This document shows, in pieces, positions 1,780-29,235 of a stretch of DNA of 34,854 bases. Every line of letters starts with the position of its first letter. Within the stretch, counting starts at the first letter, position 1. Made by a program: the position numbers and the translations under genes. Source of the stretch: a virus. The notes beneath the pieces were generated by a model, which saw nothing but the letters and a program-made list of their open reading frames with translations, did no database searches and had not been told where the DNA came from. The stretch lies in the IMG/VR virus record IMGVR_UViG_3300017781_000055, positions 1-34,854 of that record; one strand, 5' to 3'.

Positions 1780-3342
1780 ATGGAATATAATAACCCAAGT
1801 GAGATAGTTAAGGATCTTTCCTTTGGAAAAGATGCTAGAGAAAAAATAATGCACGGGGTAGATAAACTTGCAAGCGCGGTTAAATCTACATTAGGTGCAT
1901 CTGGAAAATGCGTTATATATGAAGACGCACTAGGAAGACCGGTAATTACAAAAGACGGTGTAACCGTTGCGGAAAGCGTAGTCTTGATAGACCCGGTCGA
2001 AAACATTGGTGCAACTTTAATTAAAGAAGCTGCAAAAAATACAGTAAAGGAAGCAGGCGATGGTACCACTACGGCAACCGTCCTTGCACATTCTTTACTG
2101 CATTTAGCCAATAATAAAAAAGACAATAATAATATAAGAGATATTAAGAATGGTATTCAAAGTGGTTTGCATAAAGTTCAAAAGTATCTTAATAAAAAAG
2201 CTATTGAAGTTAAAGATAATATGCTTGAAAGTGTTGCGGCAATTAGTTGCAATAATGATACAGCTCTTGGAAAGGTTATATCGCAAGCTTACTCAAAAGT
2301 AGGTAAGGATGGTGTCGTCCTTATGGAAGAGTCTGAGACCCATGACACATACGTAAAATTCGTAGAGGGCACTAGAATTAACTGCGGGCTCAAATCGCCA
2401 TACTTTATGACAGACAAAGATAAAGGTAAAGCAATATTAGATAATCCATATGTATTAATAGTATCTTCACCTATACCTAATATACGTAAAATACAAGGTG
2501 TATTGGAGTTTGTTATTAAAGCAAAAAGAAGTTTGTTAATCGTTGCGGGCGTAGAACAACAACCTATGGCAGCATTACTTGCTAATAAAGTAAAGGGTAA
2601 CATTAAAGTAAATGTTGTAGATTTGCCTGGATTCGGCCCAACAAAACAAGATACAATTGAAGACCTTGCGATCCTTACCGGAGCGAAAGTCATAAACGAA
2701 GAATTAGGAGATGATCTCGATTTAATACAACCTGATGTTTTAGGTGAGGCAGTTCAATCTGTCACAGATGATAAACACACAGTATTACAAATAGCTGATC
2801 AAGGCACTGTGCTTAATGAACGAATTAAAACAGTTGAAAATAAAATCAAGGAAGAAAAAAACCCATTCTTTAAAAAGAAATTACAAGAAAGACTAGCTAT
2901 GCTCAATGGGCAAGTAGCTATGATTAAAGTTGGCGCAGACTCTAAAGTTGAGATGAAAGAAAAGAAAGACAGGGTTGAAGATGCAATATATGCCACTAAA
3001 GCTGCATTACAAGAGGGTATTGTTTCAGGCGGGGGTGTTGCTCTATTAAATGCTTCCCAAAAAATTAAGCCTAACGGCTTGGGTGAAAAAATACTATTAG
3101 ATTCAATTAAATCACCATATAAAACAATATTAGACAATGCTAATTTAACATATATCGAATATCCAACCTCAGGTATGGGCGTTGATGTTGTAAATGAAAA
3201 AGCAGTGCGAATGATTAGCAAAGGCATTATTGATCCTGTGCTTGTGACAAAAACAGCACTGAAAAATGCAGTTAGTGTAGTTAATACAATATTTTCAGCA
3301 GATTGTGTAATTAATAATGTAAGAAACTATGAAGGCAATTAA
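1780..3342 (+). CDS. groEL: Phage-encoded GroEL-type chaperonin (Cpn60)
   Basis: This is an ATP-driven folding chamber subunit, most likely used to fold phage capsid or tail proteins in the host cytoplasm. The 520 residues compare with about 540-548 in bacteria. Visible family features are the TLGASGK nucleotide loop (TLGPKGR in E. coli), ITKDGVTV with Asp59, GDGTTTA with Asp94, SPYF in the apical domain (206-209), VEDAIYATK with Asp401 (equivalent to the hydrolytic Asp398 of E. coli GroEL), SGGGVAL and IIDPVLV near the C-terminus. The Gly-Gly-Met tail of bacterial GroEL is absent and part of the C-terminal equatorial region is shortened. A ten-residue N-terminal extension (MEYNNPSEIV) is present. 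All key catalytic residues are intact, so it should be functional. It overlaps the following groES-like gene by 14 bases. Confidence 0.95.
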   Translation: MEYNNPSEIVKDLSFGKDAREKIMHGVDKLASAVKSTLGASGKCVIYEDALGRPVITKDGVTVAESVVLIDPVENIGATLIKEAAKNTVKEAGDGTTTATVLAHSLLHLANNKKDNNNIRDIKNGIQSGLHKVQKYLNKKAIEVKDNMLESVAAISCNNDTALGKVISQAYSKVGKDGVVLMEESETHDTYVKFVEGTRINCGLKSPYFMTDKDKGKAILDNPYVLIVSSPIPNIRKIQGVLEFVIKAKRSLLIVAGVEQQPMAALLANKVKGNIKVNVVDLPGFGPTKQDTIEDLAILTGAKVINEELGDDLDLIQPDVLGEAVQSVTDDKHTVLQIADQGTVLNERIKTVENKIKEEKNPFFKKKLQERLAMLNGQVAMIKVGADSKVEMKEKKDRVEDAIYATKAALQEGIVSGGGVALLNASQKIKPNGLGEKILLDSIKSPYKTILDNANLTYIEYPTSGMGVDVVNEKAVRMISKGIIDPVLVTKTALKNAVSVVNTIFSADCVINNVRNYEGN

Positions 3343-3586
3343 TTATTACGTTGTTATTGAAAAAATAAAAGAATCGCCAAAAAAAGTTGGCGGCCTTGAA
3401 CTAACAGAAGATCAAAATAAAGATGTTAGATATTTAAAGGGTAAAGTTATATCTGCTGGTAATCTAGTGGAAAATTTGAGCAAAGACAATATAGTACATT
3501 ATGATAAGCATGCTGGGCATGGGATCGAGTGGCAAAATAATTTATATTATGTATTAAAACTTGGCGATATAGTATTAGTTGAATGA
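3329..3586 (+). CDS. groES: Phage GroES-type co-chaperonin (Cpn10), short form
   Basis: This 85-residue protein is the likely lid partner of the adjacent phage GroEL. Compared with E. coli GroES (97 residues), it has the first strand (YYVVIEKIK), a mobile-loop segment with GGLEL (residues 21-25) in the place of the GGIVL that contacts GroEL, the LKGKVISAGN strand, and a closing LKLGDIVLVE. The roof region is short. The gene starts inside the end of groEL (14-base overlap), so the two are translationally coupled. The order, chaperonin first and co-chaperonin second, is the reverse of the usual bacterial groES-groEL operon. Its ATG at 3329 is the only start that keeps the first strand. Confidence 0.85.
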   Translation: MKAINYYVVIEKIKESPKKVGGLELTEDQNKDVRYLKGKVISAGNLVENLSKDNIVHYDKHAGHGIEWQNNLYYVLKLGDIVLVE

Positions 3587-4023
3587 GATTAAGTGCTAGT
3601 GACATAAGAAATTTAAATTTATTAAAATATTATAGGCTCATTCGAAAATGGGCCTGTAAAACTTATAGCCTATCCGATGCTGATCTAGAATTACTTATTT
3701 ATTTAGATTGTAAAGAACGATTTACACGTAATGATTTTATTGATGGCACCTACACATACAGTTGGGATAAAGATAGATGGGAAAGACTTAGAAGGAACGG
3801 TTGGATAGATGTGTGGAGGCATCGTAATAGAACAACAATAAAATACAGTATATATAAAACTTCTTTTAAATGTAAACAATTAATTATGCGAATATATCGT
3901 ATAATGCTTGCAGAAGAAGATTTACCTACAAGTGAACGAAGTAAGTTTTACAATAATAAATCATACACGGATAAAGTTTATAACAAAGCTATAGATGATA
4001 TGATTAAAGATAAAGACAGATAG
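3583..4023 (+). CDS. Putative winged-helix-like protein
   Basis: The function is not recognised. The 146-residue protein has a helix (SLSDADLELLIYLDC), a short segment around RFTRNDF, and then WDKDRWERLRRNGWIDVWRHRNR followed by strand-like TIKYSIYKTS. This is the pattern of a MarR-like winged helix, with a recognition helix and a beta wing. The C-terminal half (LIMRIYRIMLAEEDLPTSE, then a basic tail) is helical and could serve for dimerisation. The start overlaps the groES stop (ATGA), so the genes are coupled. A late transcription regulator and a small structural adaptor are both possible. The winged-helix reading is by eye only. Confidence 0.5.
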   Translation: MRLSASDIRNLNLLKYYRLIRKWACKTYSLSDADLELLIYLDCKERFTRNDFIDGTYTYSWDKDRWERLRRNGWIDVWRHRNRTTIKYSIYKTSFKCKQLIMRIYRIMLAEEDLPTSERSKFYNNKSYTDKVYNKAIDDMIKDKDR

Positions 4024-8048: not shown

Positions 8049-11000
8049 ATGTCTAAAAGATTTTTAACTGGCGCAACTTTTGCAGGTGATATAACATTAG
8101 ATGATGATTTAAATTTTTCTACTAATGGTTTTGCAGACATATCAAATACTGGTACTGGTGCAATGCGATTTAAACCAAGCAGCCAAACACTTGCTTTAAC
8201 TTTAACAGGCGCAAACGCAACTTTTGCAGGGGATGTAACTGCAAATGGTGATGGTAGTTTTGGAACATCAGGTGCAACAAATAATTCCAGTGTAAAAACA
8301 CTTGACGGCTCTATAATTACAAAAATTCAATCACAAACAGCAGGAGACACAGCAGGAATACTTGGAACTGAAAGCAACAATGTTTTAAAATTAGTTACAA
8401 ATAACTCAACTGCTATAACAATAGATACTTCACAAAACTCAACTTTTGCAGGTAATGTAACAATTTCTACAACTGGTCAAGGTCTTAAAATATCAACAGC
8501 AGCAGGTCAATCACACTTGCAGTTTACAGATTCTACTAATTCTAAAAATGCTTTTGTAAACTATGACAATGATGTCTTAAAGTATTTTAGTAATGGACCA
8601 GTTGAACAATTATCTATAAGTAGCACAGGTGCAACTTTTGCAGGAAATGTAACTGCAGATAAATTAGTTATAGATGGGGCATCAAATAGTAATGTGTCTC
8701 AACTTGCACTAACAAGAACAGATTTTTCTTGGGGTATATTTAATGAAACTAATCTAAGATTTTATGTACAAAGTGGAAACACAACCACTCCAAACACACA
8801 AGTTCTTGAAATAGGAACTTCAGGAAATTTAGATTTGTCAGCAGGTGGCATATTAAAAGGAATGAGTGTTTTAGAATTAAAAAACAATGGTAGTACTGAT
8901 GGTTCAGCAACTTCTCCAAGATTATATTCTCCTGCATCAGGAACTTTAGCTTTTTCTGGTAATGGTGCAGAAAGAATGCGTATAACATCTGGGGGTGATA
9001 TTGCTGTTGGTGTTACATCAGCTCAAGGAAGAATACATATACACAACTCAGGTACATCTTATTTACATATCAGCAATGACACAACTGGGTCTGGTTCTGG
9101 AAGTGGAACGGATATTGGGGTTTTTACAGGTACATCTGATTTACAAATAAACAATAGAGAAGCAGCATCAGTTGCAATTTCTACAAGTAATACTGAAAAA
9201 ATGCGTATTACTTCTGGAGGTGATGTAGGAATTGGAATTAATGCACCAAATGCAAAAGCTAATATTGAAAATGGTCATTTATTAGTTAGTCAAAGTGCTA
9301 ATACAACTCAAGAAAACATTTTATTACAGGGAGCAGGTTATCATATAGGTTCTACATTATATGGTAATGTAAGTATTAGGTCAAGTTATAATAATTCAAG
9401 TAATTCAGGTTCTCTTAATTTTTATACTGCTGCAAGTGGTACTACCACAGCAGAGAAAATGAGGTTAGATGGAGATGGTAATTTGGGCATAAATTCAACA
9501 TCCCCATCAACATATAATGCACAATTAGTTTCATTTAAAGATGGTGGTTCATTTGCTTATTTAGGTCATAATAATTCTGGGGGAACTTTCCCTAAAGTAT
9601 CGGCTTTAAGTTTTGGCAGTAGTGCTGTTTCATTTTCACATACAACTAATGGTGGAACAAATGCTTTAACAGGTTCAGCACAAATAGCAGCTATACAATC
9701 AGCTTCAAGCAATGCCGTTACTGATATGGCTTTTTATACAACAGCAGGTGGAAGTGTAACAGAGAAAATGAGACTTGATTCATCAGGAAATTTAGGCATA
9801 GGTATCAGTCCTGTAACTTTAAAATCTGCAACAACTTTACAAGTAAATGGAAATGCTAAATTAGGTGATGCAAATGATAGAGGTCTATTATCTTTAGGAG
9901 ATATAGCTTCAACAGGTGCAAATGCAGGTATTTGGAGAGGTGCTGCAGGTGCTTATGGTTCAGCAGGTAACTTCTTAAACATAGGAGGTTATGATGGTAT
10001 TACCTTTACAACAGGTAATGCTGATATATCATCTCAAACAACTGCATTAACCATAGATGCTTCACAAAATTCGACTTTTGCAGGTAATGTAACTGTATCA
10101 AATAGTTCTCCATCTATTAATTTAACAGATACTGATAATTCAAGCAATATTGCTTTTTCTTCTGTTGGAGGAGCATTAATTGTTAATTCAGCATCTGACC
10201 AAGTTTATCAAATTGGTGGAGCTGAAAAATTTAGAATTACAAGTTCAGGGGTTAGTGTTACAGGAAGTGGAACTTTTACAGATGATGTTACAATAGATAA
10301 TAGTTCACCTGAATTATACCTAACGCCTGATTCAGCTAAATATAGTTGGATGATAGCTGCTCAAGAAAATGTAGACCAACATTTTGAAATAACACCATCT
10401 ACGACAGTTGGTGGTTCTACTTTTAATGCACCTGCTTTGAAAATAAATGGTGCAAACAATGCAGCAACTTTTGCAGGGGATATTACTGCAACATCTAAAA
10501 AGTTTATATCAACAAGTTCTTCAAGTGGAGACTATGTTAGATTATATGCAGGTGGTGGAACTGCACAATGGGATATATATGGTAGTGGAGAAAATTTAAG
10601 ATTATCAGAAAACTCAAGTGGTGGTGGTATATTTCAAGTAGATTCAGGTGCAAGTTTTGGAGGTGAAGTATCTTTAAAATCAAGATTGAATTTACAGAGG
10701 TCAAGTGGTGGTGCAACAACTTTAATACAATTTAAAAATGAAAATGGTGTAGATAGGGCGCATATTGATTTTGGGGGGACAAATGAAGAATTAAGTTTTT
10801 TTTCAGGTTCAGGTGGCTCAGAACATATGCGTATAGACGGTTCTGGAAATGTTATTGTTAATGATACAAGTTCAGACCTTTCATCTTCAGGTAGAGGTGT
10901 AATTGAAATTAATGGTACTTCTCAAGCTATTTTAGGTTTAAAAGTTAATGGTGATGTAAAAACATATTTATTCCAAAACGGAAATAATGTTGAATTAAAC

Positions 11001-12467
11001 AATACTGCAAGTGGTAGTTTGACTTTAAAAACTGCTGCAACTACAGCTTTAACCTTAGACTCGTCACAAAACGCAACTTTTGCAGGGCGGGTTGGTATTG
11101 GTGGTGATAATCCTGGCGACAGACAACTTTACGTTGAGGGTACAGCATCAATAATAGAAATTGCATCAACAACTCACAATCAAAATGCTTCTGTTTGGTT
11201 TAGAAGTAATAGAGATGGTACCAATGCTGATAGATGGGAAATAGGCACAAACATAAGCCAAGGTAGTAATTTTGAGCTTTTAAATAGAGCTACAAGCACC
11301 GCCGCTTTTCATGTAGACTCATCAAATAACAATGCAACTTTTACAGGTAATGTTTTAATTGGTGCTACTTCAGCAGCAGCAGGTGTTTTAGTTGTTGATG
11401 GTAATAGTGCTAATAATATTTGGGTTGTGGGTAGAGATTCAGATGGTACAGGTTCTTTAAGTTTTAGAAATGCTGCTGACAACGCTTATAATGCAAGACT
11501 AGAAGCTGTGAGTGGAGCATTAAAATTCGAAACTAATGGTACTTTAGCATTAACCATAGATTCATCACAAAATGTAGGAATTGGAACTGATTCGCCTGAT
11601 GAAAAATTAGATATTACAGGTGGTTATTTAAAATTTAATGGTGGTGACTATGGTTTAAAAGGTTCTGCATCATTGTCATATAATGCAACATCTGACCATT
11701 ATTTTCAATCAGGTGGCAGTACTAAAGTAACTTTTAAAGCTGGCGGCAACGTCGGGATCGGCACAACTTCGCCTGGTTATAAATTGGAAGTAAACGGAAC
11801 TGCTTATATAAATGGTGAAACTACTGTTGATGACACTTTAAAAGTTGCAGGTACAATACAAATTACAGGTACTGGGGCTTTACCTCAGTCTGGAGCAGGT
11901 ATATATAGACCCGCTAGTGATACGTTAGGTTTCTTTACTTCAGGTAATTCAAGAATGCGCATATCATCAAGTGGTGATATATTATTTGGTACGAGTACAA
12001 AAGGTAATGATTTTGCTTATTTTGAAGCAGCAGATAATAATAGAAGAATTTTACACGTTGGAAGTTCATCAACAGGTTCTGAAACAGTAGTGATTTTCAG
12101 AAATCCAAATGGAGCTGTAGGAAGTGTAATAACAGATGGTTCTACTACAAGTTTTGGTTCATCATCGGATTATAGATTAAAAGAGAATGTAGTAGAAATG
12201 ACTGATGCTTTAGATAGAGTTAGTCAATTAAAACCTAGTCGATTTAATTTTATTGCAAATCCTGATAAAACATACGATGGCTTTTTAGCACACGAAGTAC
12301 AAGATATAGTGCCAGAAGCTATAAGTGGAGATAAAGATGAAGTAGATGAAGATGGTAACGAAAAGTATCAAGGAATTGACCAGTCTAAATTAGTACCATT
12401 ATTAGTTGGTGCGATACAAGAATTAAAAGCAGAAATAGAAAATTTAAAATCACAAATAAATAATTAA
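8049..12467 (+). CDS. Long tail fibre with C-terminal Peptidase_S74 chaperone domain
   Basis: This 1472-residue protein is built from eight units containing TFAG(N/D)(V/I) (one TFTGNV), interspersed with EKMRI(T/D)SxG(D/N)(V/L)GIG-type segments, the usual pattern of phage tail-fibre shafts. The last 101 residues (from Ser1372) form an intramolecular chaperone: SSDYRLKENV holds Ser1373 and Lys1378, the Ser-Lys pair that performs self-cleavage in this family, followed by LKPSRFNF, DGFLAHEVQDIVPEA and a C-terminal coiled coil (LVGAIQELKAEIENLKSQ). The chaperone is expected to trimerise the fibre and then release itself. The mature fibre probably recognises the host surface. The repeats make length variation by recombination likely. 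Confidence 0.9.
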   Translation: MSKRFLTGATFAGDITLDDDLNFSTNGFADISNTGTGAMRFKPSSQTLALTLTGANATFAGDVTANGDGSFGTSGATNNSSVKTLDGSIITKIQSQTAGDTAGILGTESNNVLKLVTNNSTAITIDTSQNSTFAGNVTISTTGQGLKISTAAGQSHLQFTDSTNSKNAFVNYDNDVLKYFSNGPVEQLSISSTGATFAGNVTADKLVIDGASNSNVSQLALTRTDFSWGIFNETNLRFYVQSGNTTTPNTQVLEIGTSGNLDLSAGGILKGMSVLELKNNGSTDGSATSPRLYSPASGTLAFSGNGAERMRITSGGDIAVGVTSAQGRIHIHNSGTSYLHISNDTTGSGSGSGTDIGVFTGTSDLQINNREAASVAISTSNTEKMRITSGGDVGIGINAPNAKANIENGHLLVSQSANTTQENILLQGAGYHIGSTLYGNVSIRSSYNNSSNSGSLNFYTAASGTTTAEKMRLDGDGNLGINSTSPSTYNAQLVSFKDGGSFAYLGHNNSGGTFPKVSALSFGSSAVSFSHTTNGGTNALTGSAQIAAIQSASSNAVTDMAFYTTAGGSVTEKMRLDSSGNLGIGISPVTLKSATTLQVNGNAKLGDANDRGLLSLGDIASTGANAGIWRGAAGAYGSAGNFLNIGGYDGITFTTGNADISSQTTALTIDASQNSTFAGNVTVSNSSPSINLTDTDNSSNIAFSSVGGALIVNSASDQVYQIGGAEKFRITSSGVSVTGSGTFTDDVTIDNSSPELYLTPDSAKYSWMIAAQENVDQHFEITPSTTVGGSTFNAPALKINGANNAATFAGDITATSKKFISTSSSSGDYVRLYAGGGTAQWDIYGSGENLRLSENSSGGGIFQVDSGASFGGEVSLKSRLNLQRSSGGATTLIQFKNENGVDRAHIDFGGTNEELSFFSGSGGSEHMRIDGSGNVIVNDTSSDLSSSGRGVIEINGTSQAILGLKVNGDVKTYLFQNGNNVELNNTASGSLTLKTAATTALTLDSSQNATFAGRVGIGGDNPGDRQLYVEGTASIIEIASTTHNQNASVWFRSNRDGTNADRWEIGTNISQGSNFELLNRATSTAAFHVDSSNNNATFTGNVLIGATSAAAGVLVVDGNSANNIWVVGRDSDGTGSLSFRNAADNAYNARLEAVSGALKFETNGTLALTIDSSQNVGIGTDSPDEKLDITGGYLKFNGGDYGLKGSASLSYNATSDHYFQSGGSTKVTFKAGGNVGIGTTSPGYKLEVNGTAYINGETTVDDTLKVAGTIQITGTGALPQSGAGIYRPASDTLGFFTSGNSRMRISSSGDILFGTSTKGNDFAYFEAADNNRRILHVGSSSTGSETVVIFRNPNGAVGSVITDGSTTSFGSSSDYRLKENVVEMTDALDRVSQLKPSRFNFIANPDKTYDGFLAHEVQDIVPEAISGDKDEVDEDGNEKYQGIDQSKLVPLLVGAIQELKAEIENLKSQINN
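8074..11347 (+). repeat. Eight dispersed copies of a CAACTTTTGCAGG coding repeat
   Basis: The 13-base word CAACTTTTGCAGG begins at 8074, 8218, 8440, 8632, 10465 and 11074, with single-mismatch copies at 10072 and 11335. All are in frame and encode the (A/S)TFAG shaft repeat of the long fibre. Near-identity at the DNA level, beyond what the protein needs, points to recent duplication or gene conversion among units. Confidence 0.8.
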
Positions 12468-13167: not shown

Positions 13168-13386
13168 ATGTCATTGGTAAGAAAAATTAGTATAGGTAGA
13201 GATTATAAAAATGACGCTATGCACTACGCAGTAGGGCAAGAAGTATATGGTGGGCACGTAATATGTGACATTGTAGAAAAAGATAATAAGTTTTCTATTT
13301 ATATTAAAAAAAATAACGAAATATTACCGTGGAAAGATTTTAATAAAAATATGGCTATAGCTGTTGAATATAATTTACAATATTAA
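13168..13386 (+). CDS. Hypothetical protein (72 aa)
   Basis: The short protein opens VRKISIGRDYKNDAMHYAVG, then has strands around EVYGGHVICDIVEKD and FSIYIKKNNEILPWKDFN. The overall beta-rich pattern with ISIGxDYKxxAMHYxVGQ is one I have seen in small marine-phage proteins near the terminase, none characterised. The stop overlaps the next start by one base (TAATG), so it is translated together with the double GroES-like gene. Confidence 0.6.
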   Translation: MSLVRKISIGRDYKNDAMHYAVGQEVYGGHVICDIVEKDNKFSIYIKKNNEILPWKDFNKNMAIAVEYNLQY

Positions 13387-13970
13387 TGCAAAGTTTATTT
13401 AACTTTATAGTTAAACCTAAAAACGAAAGATACGATAATAAAAAATATATTGACGGCCAAGAATTATTGTTAAATACAGAAATTTCTAGCCATCAATATG
13501 TTAGTCGTAATGCTATAGTGGTAGCAACACCTAAATTACAGAAAACTGAAATGCAAGTTGGTGATGAAGTTATTGTACATCATAATGTTTTTAGGAGATG
13601 GTATGATGTTAGAGGTATTGAAAAAAATAGTAGAAGTTACTATAAAGAAGACAAATACTTTGTAACATTAGATCAAATATTTTTATATAAACGAAATCAT
13701 AAATGGCAAGCGCCTAAAGATTTTTGTTTTGTTAAACCAATTGAATCAAATGATGTTATTGAAAAAGAAATACCCTTACGTGGTATTATAAAGTATATTG
13801 ATAAAAAACTTAAAGATATACAAAAAGAAGATTTAGTTGGTTTTACACCAAGCAGTGAATATGAATTTATTGTTGACGGTGAGAGAATGTATAGAGTACC
13901 AACAAATTCAATATCTATTAAGTATGAACGCGAAGGAACAGAAAGAGAATATAATCCAAGCTGGCTATAG
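13386..13970 (+). CDS. Tandem double GroES-like barrel protein, putative second co-chaperonin
   Basis: The 194-residue protein reads as two GroES-type barrels in series. Barrel 1 (about 5-105) has FNFIVKPKNERY (first strand), a mobile-loop-like DGQELLLNTEISSH, SRNAIVVATP (RGEVLAVG in GroES), MQVGDEVIVHHNVFR (VKVGDIVIFND) and KYFVTLDQIFLYK (EEVLIMSESDILAV). Barrel 2 (about 112-185) has FCFVKPIES, LRGIIKYIDKK, QKEDLVGFTPSSEYEF and DGERMYRVPTNSISIKYE, with no obvious mobile loop. The assignment rests on strand order and key VGD residues seen by eye, not on a search. It sits just before the terminase genes, about 10 kb from the groEL-groES pair. It may be a capsid-specific co-chaperonin comparable in role to T4 gp31. 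Confidence 0.55.
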   Translation: MQSLFNFIVKPKNERYDNKKYIDGQELLLNTEISSHQYVSRNAIVVATPKLQKTEMQVGDEVIVHHNVFRRWYDVRGIEKNSRSYYKEDKYFVTLDQIFLYKRNHKWQAPKDFCFVKPIESNDVIEKEIPLRGIIKYIDKKLKDIQKEDLVGFTPSSEYEFIVDGERMYRVPTNSISIKYEREGTEREYNPSWL

Positions 13971-24356: not shown

Positions 24357-27300
24357 ATGCCAGAAATTAAAAACAATTTTCTTCAAGGTAAAATGAATAA
24401 AGACCTTGATGATAGATTATTACCTAACGGCCAGTATAGAGATGCACAAAATATACAAATATCTAAATCTGAAAATTCTGATGTGGGTGCTGTTCAGAAT
24501 ATTAAAGGAAATAATTATGCATATAATGCTACGCCTCTTAATTTAGCTTCTGGTGTTGAAACAATTGGTTATTATAAAGTTTCTTTGACTGGTGAAATAT
24601 TTTGGTTTGTAACAAATTTTACAGGCAATGATACTGTAAGTTCTAAAGATATGTCATATGCTACATCAAGTATAAACGGCACTCCTACAGTTTGCGCTAT
24701 ATATTATTGGAATGCAAATCAACCAAATACCTCTCCGCAAGCTATAATAGATAGCTTTAGATTAAATTTTTCAAAAAATCATCCTGTATTACATGTTAAT
24801 TTAATTGATAATTTACTATTTTGGACTGATAATTATAATCAACCAAGAAGAATAAATTTATCTCAAGCAACAGGACAGGCTATTGGCACTTTTTATCTTA
24901 ATGATAATTATTTAGAAGATAAAATTAGTGTTGCACAATATTCTCCGCCATCTCCCCCTAAGGTTACCATGAGCGCTGAGAGCAGCTCTGATGTCGGTAG
25001 TTTGCATATAAGAGATAAATTTGTTAAATTCGCGTATAGATTTCAATATGAAAATAATGAATATTCGTTAATATCCCCATTTACACAAACTTGCTTTCAT
25101 CCCGGTAAAGGTAAAAATTTTAATAATGCAACTTTTGTTGCGAACGACGCGGGTATATTGTCATCTACAGATGAAAGTAACGCTGTAAAAGAAACAATAG
25201 TGGAATCAATGCAAAATCTAGCTAATAGAGTTGCTTTATTTATTGATTTGCCTTCTAATATTGACAAATCAAATGTTGGTGCGTGTGATGCAAATGGAAT
25301 ATTAACTGGTACTAGTCATAATATAGATAATCCTAATGGTTCAATATCTGATAATGATATTTTATTAACTGCTAAAGGTGATGAATATATTGTAAATGGT
25401 GGAAATAAAACAACAACATTAACTACAAGTACTAGTGTTTCACCATCAATTATAAATAACACAAGATTATATTTTTTTAATAATGTAGCTGATTATGATG
25501 ATAAAATGCAAATTAAAAAAATACAAATATTATATTCTGAATCGGATAGTGCCGCTTTGAAAGTTGTAGAAACTTTAAATTTTAATGAAATTAAAAGCGA
25601 TATAACGCATAGGGTTGAGCCTATATCTAACAATATTAGTAAATTAATATATGGTTATAAATATATATATAACTCAATAAAGCCTATACAAACTTTACCA
25701 GAATCTGAATTAATTAGAATTTCAGATGTTATACCTGTAAAAGCTCATGCACAAGAGGTTAGTGGAAATAGAGTTATTTATGGTAATTTTAAACAAAATA
25801 GATCATTAGATACTGCCGTTAATAAAAGTTCATTTTTAATAACAAATGGTGATCAAACAAAATTCAATGATCAATATTTATTATCTTCAGTAAAATCAAA
25901 TAGAGAATATTCTGTTGGCTTAGTTTTATCTGATAGATATGGAAGACAATCAACAGTATTTTTACCAACGACTAGCACTACATTTGTAGACCCTAAAACA
26001 GGAACTGTTACAAATGGAGCAAGTTCTTGGACACACTCTGCACTAAAAATTACTTTTAATAATACAATAGGCGATGCTTATCAAGCAGATACAAATCCGT
26101 TAGGTTGGTATTCTTATAAAGTTGTAATTAAACAATCGGAACAAGAATATTATAATGTATATGCTCCAACAATAGTTGATAATATACCCACAAGTAATGT
26201 AAGATCATGGCTAGTGTTGCATGGAGACAATGTAAATAAAGTGCCTAGAGACGTAACTGATGTCAATACCGAAACAGGTACGCAAGGTTCACAAACTAGA
26301 CTATTACCTAAAATATTAGATTTAACTGGTACACAAACACAACAATCAGGAAATTCATTTATTGATGTTATTTCAATTGGAACTAACCAAGAACAAGGGT
26401 TTGGTTCAAGTAGTACTGATGAATTTTATTTAAATGAAAAAGGACCTTTATTGGCTGAATTGCCAGATGGATATGGAAGAAATCACGCTTCTAGCACTAC
26501 TTTTGATAATTTAGTTGTATTAGAAACTGATCCTTTTAAATCTGCTTTAGATATTTATTATGAAACTTCAACAGCCGGTTTAGTTTCACATTTAAATGCT
26601 GCTATAACAGAAACATTAGGTGTTGTGCCTTCAAGTATAGCTTTATCAGCTTCATCTTTTGCAGAAGCAACAGCAAGCGGTGGCACTGTAGCTGCAATAA
26701 CATCAACAGACACAAATAGTAATCCTGTAAATACACCATCTTATACTATTATATCTATAACAGATGCAAATGGAACAAACAGATCCGGCGCGTTTACAAT
26801 AAGCGGAAGTAATTTATTAACTGGTGAAGCATTTGAATTTACAAATACAAATACAGATGATTATACTATAAGAATAAAAGTTACAGATAATGGAGGAAAT
26901 ACTTTAATACAAGATAAATCTATATCCGTTACAAATAGCAACCCAACAATAAATGTAGGTATTGCTTTAACTATACCAGCATCTACAATATCTGGAACAG
27001 CAATTAGAACAATAACAGGTACAAACGGAAGTGCCAAAACAAGTGCAAATACTAATAATTTAACATTTTCTATTACAAGTGGTAATAGCGCTGGTAAATT
27101 TAGTATAAATGCCTCTACAGGAGTACTAAGTACAGCCTCTAGTGTAACATCAGGTGATTCTTATACATTAACAATTCAAGTTTCTGATATTGCAAATGCT
27201 ACAGCTTCAGATACTTTAAGCATAACCGTTAGCTCTGCATCAAGAACAGCTTTTTGGAGAAGTAATAGTGGTTATACATCTGCGTCTACTGCTGTAAATG

Positions 27301-27548
27301 AACCAACTCTTGTGCAAGTTTATTTTGAAAATACAAGCGGCAATCCTGCTGGTAATTTACCTGAAATAGGAGATACTGTTTACGACTCAGCAACAGGAAC
27401 AGCTGTATTTAACAGTGGGGCTGCTTCAAACGGATCAGGCGGAAATTTCCATTCTATGTGTGGTCCTTCCTATTGCCAAGCTAATGAGCCATTATTTGTA
27501 TTCAAAACAACTAGTAGTGGTGTTGTTGTAGTAAAACAAATAGGTTAA
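24357..27548 (+). CDS. Muzzle/tail-tubular-B-type protein, N-terminal part, with cadherin-like repeats
   Basis: The 1063-residue protein opens NNFLQGKMNKDLDDRLLPNG and YRDAQNIQISKSE, the typical start of the tail nozzle (muzzle) proteins of Bacteroidetes podoviruses, and contains LLFWTDNYNQPRRINLSQAT and FVKFAYRFQYENNEYSLISP (propeller-like blades). After about residue 755 come two cadherin- or Ig-like domains (ASSFAEATASGGTVAAITS, then AIRTITGTNGSAKT and KFSINASTGVLSTASS), followed by a C-terminal unit with the Cys pair SMCGPSYCQ (about 1032-1040). In relatives as I remember them, the N- and C-terminal parts of this protein are one chain; here the second part is the separate gene at 27580-28836. 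Confidence 0.7.
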   Translation: MPEIKNNFLQGKMNKDLDDRLLPNGQYRDAQNIQISKSENSDVGAVQNIKGNNYAYNATPLNLASGVETIGYYKVSLTGEIFWFVTNFTGNDTVSSKDMSYATSSINGTPTVCAIYYWNANQPNTSPQAIIDSFRLNFSKNHPVLHVNLIDNLLFWTDNYNQPRRINLSQATGQAIGTFYLNDNYLEDKISVAQYSPPSPPKVTMSAESSSDVGSLHIRDKFVKFAYRFQYENNEYSLISPFTQTCFHPGKGKNFNNATFVANDAGILSSTDESNAVKETIVESMQNLANRVALFIDLPSNIDKSNVGACDANGILTGTSHNIDNPNGSISDNDILLTAKGDEYIVNGGNKTTTLTTSTSVSPSIINNTRLYFFNNVADYDDKMQIKKIQILYSESDSAALKVVETLNFNEIKSDITHRVEPISNNISKLIYGYKYIYNSIKPIQTLPESELIRISDVIPVKAHAQEVSGNRVIYGNFKQNRSLDTAVNKSSFLITNGDQTKFNDQYLLSSVKSNREYSVGLVLSDRYGRQSTVFLPTTSTTFVDPKTGTVTNGASSWTHSALKITFNNTIGDAYQADTNPLGWYSYKVVIKQSEQEYYNVYAPTIVDNIPTSNVRSWLVLHGDNVNKVPRDVTDVNTETGTQGSQTRLLPKILDLTGTQTQQSGNSFIDVISIGTNQEQGFGSSSTDEFYLNEKGPLLAELPDGYGRNHASSTTFDNLVVLETDPFKSALDIYYETSTAGLVSHLNAAITETLGVVPSSIALSASSFAEATASGGTVAAITSTDTNSNPVNTPSYTIISITDANGTNRSGAFTISGSNLLTGEAFEFTNTNTDDYTIRIKVTDNGGNTLIQDKSISVTNSNPTINVGIALTIPASTISGTAIRTITGTNGSAKTSANTNNLTFSITSGNSAGKFSINASTGVLSTASSVTSGDSYTLTIQVSDIANATASDTLSITVSSASRTAFWRSNSGYTSASTAVNEPTLVQVYFENTSGNPAGNLPEIGDTVYDSATGTAVFNSGAASNGSGGNFHSMCGPSYCQANEPLFVFKTTSSGVVVVKQIG

Positions 27549-27579: not shown

Positions 27580-28836
27580 ATGGCTTATACAGTTGAAGTT
27601 CAATTTTTTAATACATTTATTTTAAGATCAGAAACTACAAACACTTTGTATGTAGAAGAAGCAAGAATAAAAGGCGGCTATAATGAGCCATTTGTAGGCA
27701 TTGGGCCTAAAGCGCATTTAGTAGACGATACATATGCCGAAACAACAAGAGAAAATGCTTTAATATATTCTGGTATTTATAATTCTAGAACAGATATAAA
27801 TAGAACAAATGTATTTAGTGGGGGTGAGCCTATAACAAGGGCTGTTGATCCTGCAGATGGTAGTATACAGAAATTACATGCTGAGGACACTAACTTAAAT
27901 ATATTACAAGAAGATAAAGTAAGTTATGCTTTAATTGATAAAGATGCATTATTTGCTGCTGAAGGAGGACAGCTTACGGCATCAGGTGCCGCTGTGATTG
28001 GTCAAGTAATACCTTATTTAGGAAAATATGGTATTAGTAAAAATCCAGAAAGTTTTGCCTTTAAAGGTGGTAGAAAATATTTTGCTGATAAAAGTAGAGG
28101 AGCAATACTTAGATTATCAAGAGACGGTATTACTGAAATATCAGCAAATGGCATGAGAGATTATTTTAGAGATAATCTTAAAAACGTAACTAAGATAGTT
28201 GGCGGTTATGATGATCACTCTGAAGAATATGTTGTTTCATTGCAAGGCCCTACAAATGAAATTGAAGGAGGTTATAATACTTTAGTTTTTGATGAAAATG
28301 TTAGAGGCTGGGTAAGTTTTTATACATATAAACCAGATTTTGTTTTTAGTTTAAATAAAGATTTTTATAGTTTAAATAGCAATAATTTGTGGAAACATTA
28401 CAGTGATGATGTTGATTATAATAATTTTTATTTAAATAATAATACATTTTCACCTTCTCATATAACTTTTGTGGCTAATGCAGAACCTTCTTTTGTTAAA
28501 AACTTTAATAGTATAAATTATGAAGGTGATAGTAATTGGTCTATGGAAACATCAATTACAGATTTAAATATACAATCTTACAAAATATCTGGCTCAGATG
28601 ATACAACTTTATCTGGAGATATAATACCACAATTTGTTAAAAAAGAAAATAAATACTATTCTCAATTAATGAATAAAGATACAAGTGATGGCGACGGACA
28701 GATTACAGGAGACAATGGCTTACAGTTTAGTACATCGGGTTTAAAAGGATTTTTTACAACAGTAAAAATGGAAAATAGGGCCACTACAGGTGTTGAATTA
28801 TTTACTGTATCGCATAATATAACAAAATCAAGTTAA
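27580..28836 (+). CDS. Muzzle/tail-tubular-B-type protein, C-terminal part, as a separate gene
   Basis: The 418 residues read like the C-terminal half of a muzzle protein: EEARIKGGYNEPFVGIGPKA, ENALIYSGIYNSRTDINRTN, GSIQKLHAEDTNLNILQEDK, LGKYGISKNPESFAFKGGRK, YFADKSRGAILRLSRDGITE and GMRDYFRDNLKN. These segments normally lie within one long protein together with the NNFLQGKMNKDL-type N-terminus. Here there is a stop at 27546-27548, 31 noncoding bases with stops in all frames, and a new ATG at 27580 with its own A/T-rich leader. It is probably expressed and assembles with the first part in the nozzle. The next gene begins one base after its stop. Confidence 0.7.
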   Translation: MAYTVEVQFFNTFILRSETTNTLYVEEARIKGGYNEPFVGIGPKAHLVDDTYAETTRENALIYSGIYNSRTDINRTNVFSGGEPITRAVDPADGSIQKLHAEDTNLNILQEDKVSYALIDKDALFAAEGGQLTASGAAVIGQVIPYLGKYGISKNPESFAFKGGRKYFADKSRGAILRLSRDGITEISANGMRDYFRDNLKNVTKIVGGYDDHSEEYVVSLQGPTNEIEGGYNTLVFDENVRGWVSFYTYKPDFVFSLNKDFYSLNSNNLWKHYSDDVDYNNFYLNNNTFSPSHITFVANAEPSFVKNFNSINYEGDSNWSMETSITDLNIQSYKISGSDDTTLSGDIIPQFVKKENKYYSQLMNKDTSDGDGQITGDNGLQFSTSGLKGFFTTVKMENRATTGVELFTVSHNITKSS

Positions 28837-29235
28837 ATGAAATTAAATATTCGTAGACTCAATGATGAGGACTACAGTACACTAGTGAAATGGTGGGATG
28901 CATGGCCGGAATGGCAAGCCCCTCCTAAAACTTTTTTACCAGATACTGGTTTTATAGTTGAAAAAAATAATGTTGGTATAGTAGCAGGTTATGTATATAT
29001 GACCAATTCTAAGGCCGCTTTACTTGAATGGATAATATCTAATCCAGAATATAGAGAAAGTGACAGAAAAGACGCGATAACGCTCTTAATTCAAGCTGTA
29101 GAGCGTGTTTTAAAAGATCAAGGTATAAAACATGTATTTACGATTGGCAGACACAAAAGTTTAATAAACTTACATAAAAAATTAGGATGGTTAGTTGATG
29201 AAAAACCATCGTACGAAATAATAAAAAATTTATAA
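28837..29235 (+). CDS. GNAT-family acetyltransferase
   Basis: At 132 residues this is a single, small GNAT domain: an N-terminal strand (MKLNIRRLNDEDYSTLVKWW), TGFIVEKNNVGIVAGYVYMT, ALLEWIISNPEYRESDRKDA (strand 4 and the start of the CoA pyrophosphate-binding helix), LLIQAVERVLKDQGIKHVFT and a C-terminal NLHKKLGWLVDEKP. The acetyl-CoA loop is less canonical than the usual Q/RxxGxG/A, so substrate and activity are uncertain. Its place between muzzle and internal virion genes is one I recall in related marine phages, suggesting that it modifies a virion protein or enters with the DNA. Confidence 0.75.
   Translation: MKLNIRRLNDEDYSTLVKWWDAWPEWQAPPKTFLPDTGFIVEKNNVGIVAGYVYMTNSKAALLEWIISNPEYRESDRKDAITLLIQAVERVLKDQGIKHVFTIGRHKSLINLHKKLGWLVDEKPSYEIIKNL

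Follow-up and report, generated by a model that had tools for sequence, protein, structure and literature searches.

Whether a phage that encodes both a GroEL and a GroES builds a folding cage of its own, and whether that cage consists of two rings or of one, is the question raised by a locus in the IMG/VR virus record IMGVR_UViG_3300017781_000055. The stretch analyzed, referred to here as the window, is 34,854 bases long and probably derives from a marine phage of a flavobacterial host (Bacteroidota), as suggested by isolated phages with a related terminase, which infect Flavobacterium, Cellulophaga, Maribacter or Tenacibaculum. On its plus strand, groEL (1780–3342) encodes a 520-residue group I chaperonin and groES (3329–3586) an 85-residue co-chaperonin, the two genes sharing 14 bases (3329–3342). 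Our preferred reading, with a probability of roughly 0.7, is that GroEL and GroES act as a cognate barrel and lid, giving the phage an ATP-driven folding cage of its own.

The GroEL reading frame covers the whole Pfam Cpn60_TCP1 profile (E 9.6e-50) and matches phrog_5725, ‘chaperonin groEL’ (E 1.2e-134), while the GroES frame matches Pfam Cpn10 above the curated cut-off (E 6.8e-8). The complete pair and the 14-base overlap, both proposed in an initial annotation of the sequence, are thus borne out. The ATP site also proved intact as annotated. Residues D59, D94 and D401 correspond to E. coli D52, D87 and D398, the SGGG glycine loop is preserved, and the equivalents of D52, D87, D398, D495 and the glycine loop are invariant in all 24 family members compared. 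An AlphaFold model (pLDDT 87) aligns over some 500 residues with GroEL (residues 9–516 with 2–526; Z ~35–39). Sequence family, a full three-domain fold and ATP-site residues place the protein among the group I chaperonins (GroEL/Hsp60). Missing are seven residues around E. coli E434 and six around E461–N467, which shorten two inter-ring-contact loops, as well as the Gly-Gly-Met tail; 11 residues follow from the E. coli 520 position onward, compared with 29 in E. coli and 21–33 in bacteria. The annotated loss of this tail therefore stands, but the accompanying truncation of the C-terminal equatorial domain does not, given the extent of the model alignment. Both genes are kept by selection, with a median omega of 0.13 over 310 pairs for GroEL and of 0.21 over 352 pairs for GroES. 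A truncated or decaying GroEL is ruled out by the model alignment and this purifying selection.

A scan of viral contigs in IMG/VR identified at least 597 confirmed relatives, of which the best 80, with 67–94% identity, were kept. In these 80 loci and the window, groES lies directly after groEL without exception (81/81), and the two genes share 14 bases in 40 loci, 1 base in 20, 4 bases in 13 and 17 bases in 8. The overlap could couple translation of the two genes. The same order is found in 13 of the 13 Elemovirus relatives with a readable GroEL and, with variable spacing, in 78/81 members of the group of Caudoviricetes phage ctfjg026. The isolated Flavobacterium phage elemoF_6-3D is already annotated with GroEL followed by GroES, and in Maribacter phage Panino groEL is followed by a small ORF and then a GroES homologue, both proteins having been reported by the authors of that phage (PMC11590407). 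A viral contig scan with the Panino GroEL as query returned no matches. A 2017 paper had reported GroEL from marine Bacteroidetes phages (PMC5332604). Bacteria, by contrast, carry groES before groEL in 75 of 75 decidable loci. The initial annotation was therefore correct that the order is reversed relative to bacteria, but its view of the overlapping arrangement as unusual does not hold within the phage clade. Conservation across relatives and annotated isolates makes the groEL–groES order a trait of the clade and not an oddity, and neither the phage chaperonin pair nor its gene order is novel.

In a 115-row tree, all rows with the groEL–groES order except one fall on one side of a single branch (SH-aLRT 94.6). 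Long branches meet at this point, so a single origin of the order is not proven. The exception is a 73 kb contig (L230) whose phage GroEL forms a lineage apart. It too has groEL before groES, overlapping by 4 bases, and the arrangement apparently arose there independently.

The pair is flanked on the plus strand by two genes for proteins of unknown function. A 102-residue protein is encoded just 5′ of groEL (1445–1753) and is present in 69/77 related loci, while a 146-residue protein with a weak match to phrog_17028 is encoded directly 3′ of groES (3583–4023) and follows it in 79/79 (both counts from the best 80 of at least 597 relatives). The start of the latter gene overlaps the groES stop, its linkage to the pair is as tight as that of groEL with groES, and it is possibly part of the chaperonin operon.

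The groES frame is not a chance ORF, an option ruled out by the Pfam match, its conservation across the 81 loci and its omega. The GroES model (pLDDT 92) matches Thermus Cpn10 in Foldseek (E 1.7e-5), and the GGLEL mobile loop noted in the initial annotation is found at residues 21–25. Family, fold and mobile-loop motif identify the protein as a GroES/Cpn10. Its roof β-hairpin departs from this pattern, as GroES of the clade is ~10 residues shorter there than most bacterial GroES; a flavobacterial example is ~6 residues shorter. Membership in the Cpn10 family stands nonetheless, since T4 gp31, a co-chaperonin, is also short at this position in the alignment. T4 gp31, likewise a phage co-chaperonin with the GroES fold, is among the Foldseek matches of the GroES model (E 2.7e-3, 12% identity). 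It pairs with the host GroEL instead of a phage-encoded one, and the gp31-capped cage is known to be enlarged; a literature search on the gp31 roof found nothing. The shortened GroES roof and the missing GroEL C-terminal tail both remove mass from the cavity, suggesting a roomier cage. The cage is probably enlarged, and the small-cavity form suggested earlier is not supported, as these deletions run the opposite way.

The contacts between rings show the most pronounced change. For this comparison, the inter-ring, groove and salt-bridge positions are those that we take to apply from the E. coli GroEL structure, apart from the four SR1 residues and the R197–E386 pair. The former are the residues changed in the single-ring mutant SR1 (R452, E461, S463 and V464; PMC12696368), and the latter pair was taken from PMC9598537. 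Conservation in 29 rows of the window clade was compared with that in 39 bacteria, using 11 inter-ring sites and 5000 random site sets. Mean conservation at the inter-ring sites is 0.09 in the window clade versus 0.62 in bacteria, and the mean conservation percentile is 0.06 versus 0.44, a drop as extreme as in none of the 5000 random sets. Conservation of the ATP pocket is unchanged (0.99 versus 0.95), and that of the strand contacts within a ring is higher in the window clade than in bacteria (0.83 versus 0.65). Positions K105, A109, R452 and E461 alone show the same drop, so the result does not stem only from gapped loop columns. It is also seen in the ctfjg026 (7 rows) and elemo (4 rows) groups, whereas other phage GroELs show a milder drop (0.28–0.30). 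Together with the two shortened contact loops, this loss of conservation makes a single heptameric ring, or a weak non-canonical ring pairing, somewhat more probable than not as the working form of the GroEL, a prediction made from aligned sequences. The single ring that the initial annotation had offered as one of two forms thus gains sequence support.

Lost conserved contacts are no proof that ring pairing is absent, as new contacts could replace them. A conventional double-ring GroEL14–GroES7 complex, with ring–ring contacts rebuilt from other residues and a mechanism like that of the host GroEL, would be consistent with the full group I fold and ATP pocket, with the partial relaxation of inter-ring sites in other phage GroELs, and with the reconstructed ancestor of the Bacteroidetes-group chaperonin, which is a double ring (PMC12696368). 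Rebuilt contacts should themselves be conserved, however, and in the window family positions 105, 109, 452 and 461 vary freely while E434 is deleted in 24/24 members. We therefore consider a rebuilt double ring rather unlikely, though it is the strongest of the alternatives. A further alternative places the phage subunits in or on the host chaperonin, with phage GroES, and perhaps a second co-chaperonin described below, capping host GroEL in the manner of T4 gp31, or with mixed GroEL rings. The canonical mobile loop of the GroES would fit such capping, and phage phi19:3, which has a tandem co-chaperonin and no listed GroEL, may use its host's GroEL in this way. Against this stand the linkage of the pair in all 81 loci (the window and the best 80 of at least 597 relatives), among which GroES never occurs without its own GroEL, and an identity of ~40% to bacterial GroEL, which makes mixed rings unlikely. 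The apical groove of the phage GroEL is also altered. In the family alignment, E. coli L234 is replaced by Gln in 24/24 members and Y199 by Leu or Ile, changes that suggest a specialized range of partners or clients. This groove points to pairing with the phage's own GroES and to a client set that may differ from that of host GroEL. Taken together, use of the host chaperonin appears improbable. The salt bridges of E. coli GroEL are changed as well, D83–K327 being mostly charge-swapped (K/R with D/N/E) and R197–E386 mostly lost (S/C with K) in the window clade, and the allosteric cycle may therefore differ.

A host groE operon acquired recently and little adapted to the phage would fit the closest cellular proteins found, which have 38–43% identity to the window GroEL and include many from Bacteroidota, the likely host phylum. 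Phylogeny speaks clearly against it. In a 55-row GroEL tree, from which the longest-branched phages were left out, the window GroEL belongs to a phage-only clade (support 100/100) with a stem of 1.32 substitutions per column. This clade is not nested in Bacteroidota, and its attachment beside them is not firm (71/91). Combined with the reversed gene order relative to the 75 decidable bacterial loci, these results rule out a recently captured operon, a scenario to which we assign a negligible likelihood. The phylogenetic check proposed with the initial annotation thus showed no sign of capture and, with the purifying selection on both genes, upholds its picture of a functional-looking two-gene phage set.

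Under our preferred reading of a phage-made cage, GroEL would serve as the barrel and GroES as its cognate lid while the phage infects its Bacteroidota host, and phage proteins, most likely abundant virion proteins, would be folded inside. Bypass of the host chaperonin is plausible. In cells infected with the more distantly related Cellulophaga phage phi38:1, the phage GroEL has been detected as protein (PMC13288928). No lid is used by the characterized phage chaperonins EL, OBP and AR9, of which the latter two form single rings (PMC9598537); an E. coli-like use of GroES is therefore not a given for a phage GroEL. EL is 22% identical to GroEL (PMC7185714). The window GroEL does not belong to this type, given its ~40% identity to bacterial GroEL and its linked groES.

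A second co-chaperonin gene, which the initial annotation had not linked to the pair, lies on the plus strand at 13386–13970, a short distance 5′ of the large terminase gene (14196). It encodes 194 residues with two apparent tandem Cpn10-like domains and matches phrog_13932, ‘co-chaperonin GroES’ (E 1.9e-19). In hhalign comparisons with GroES, its C-terminal half reaches 94.7% and its N-terminal half 48.5%, against at most 1.75% for shuffled controls. The homologue in Pachyvirus phi19:3 reaches 96.0% and 73.8% against GroES and 94.8% against the 194-residue family; the pairwise E-values from hhalign apply to one comparison only. Both this homologue, in its second half, and that of Calle exceed the Pfam Cpn10 cut-off. 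A tblastn search with the 194-residue protein missed the phi19:3 homologue, which annotation revealed. The gene also lies just 5′ of the terminase in ctfjg026, elemo, Calle and phi38:1, and ‘Chaperonin cpn10’ is a listed core gene of Pervagoviridae (PMC8776804).

Among virus contigs of at least 50 kb, the tandem gene is present in 33/33 with the window type of GroEL and in 0/11 with other phage GroELs; the L230 contig has only a weak match to its C-terminal half. The dependence on phage GroEL does not appear to be strict. It is weakened by phi19:3, which keeps a related tandem GroES-like gene with no GroEL match listed, as inferred from match tallies, and by several contigs that carry the gene and show no GroEL, although these may be fragments. 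The case of phi19:3 indicates that common descent of the packaging block may account for part of the co-occurrence. Judged from its sequence, the tandem protein has about an even chance of being a second lid or an assembly-specific co-chaperonin. A three-part machine, in which a single-ring GroEL would use the adjacent single-domain GroES and the tandem Cpn10 of the packaging block as two different lids, with the tandem lid acting in head assembly or packaging, is more speculative and at present doubtful.

Comparison with known systems places these features in context. Elemovirus vB_FspP_elemoF_6-3D (KNV11_gp43/gp44) shares the groEL-then-groES order, with a 1-base overlap, a short-roofed GroES and the tandem Cpn10 gene 5′ of the terminase. 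Its GroEL, however, is 36% identical, with Cys or Gly in place of the ATP-loop T91, a variable G88, and R197 and E386 kept. Phage ctfjg026 (MW202828), which encodes groEL and chaperonin 10, has the same order, the tandem gene 5′ of the terminase, and the terminase closest to that of the window in the phage collection (62.9%), but its GroEL is longer and ~36% identical, and gene spacing varies in its group. Cellulophaga phages phi38:1 and Calle (Pervagoviridae) also encode GroEL, GroES and a tandem Cpn10 protein, but in the order groES–orf–groEL and with 39% GroEL identity. Bacterial GroEL–GroES, from E. coli and Bacteroidota, shares the fold, ATP site and mobile loop, and differs in gene order, inter-ring sites, salt bridges, groove, GroES roof and GroEL tail.

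The window contains several further features. A 52-base element occurs three times on the minus strand (164–215, 761–812 and 957–1008; core GGATAATATAA), each copy ~10–25 bases upstream of a minus-strand ATG, and looks like a phage promoter or leader; its core is matched in 10/80 related loci (best 80 of at least 597). The surrounding region (1–1100) is AT-rich and poor in ORFs; the larger ones run on the minus strand, against the direction of the later genes, and the region is perhaps a boundary between two transcription blocks. A tail fibre of 1472 residues (8049–12467) ends in a Peptidase_S74 (endosialidase chaperone) domain. The 418-residue protein at 27580–28836 has a Pfam match to the Crassvirus muzzle protein (crAss_MUZ, E 9.6e-11). 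The proteins at 27580–28836 and 24357–27548, the first of which has a cadherin-like domain as well, align with separate parts of phrog_14478, an arrangement that looks like a single muzzle-like protein split in two. Inside the structural gene block, a 132-residue protein (28837–29235) falls just short of the GNAT acetyltransferase cut-off (20.6 versus 20.7 bits), a borderline match. Searches of the 34,854 bases for tRNAs and Rfam families found none.

The phage GroELs characterized biochemically so far are distant, lid-free proteins of giant phages. The family described here is widespread in IMG/VR, closer to bacterial GroEL, and combines its own lid genes with an apparent natural decay of the ring–ring interface. 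What deserves experiment is the loss of conservation at the ring interface, together with the tandem co-chaperonin gene. If the three-part machine exists, it would parallel, in a virus, the chloroplast Cpn60, which has both Cpn10 and Cpn20 as lids. These questions, including why a phage would carry two kinds of lid, can be tested, as relatives are available in culture (elemo, phi38:1, Calle and Panino). Whether two rings are required for a group I chaperonin to work, otherwise studied largely with engineered mutants, can be asked here of a natural family.
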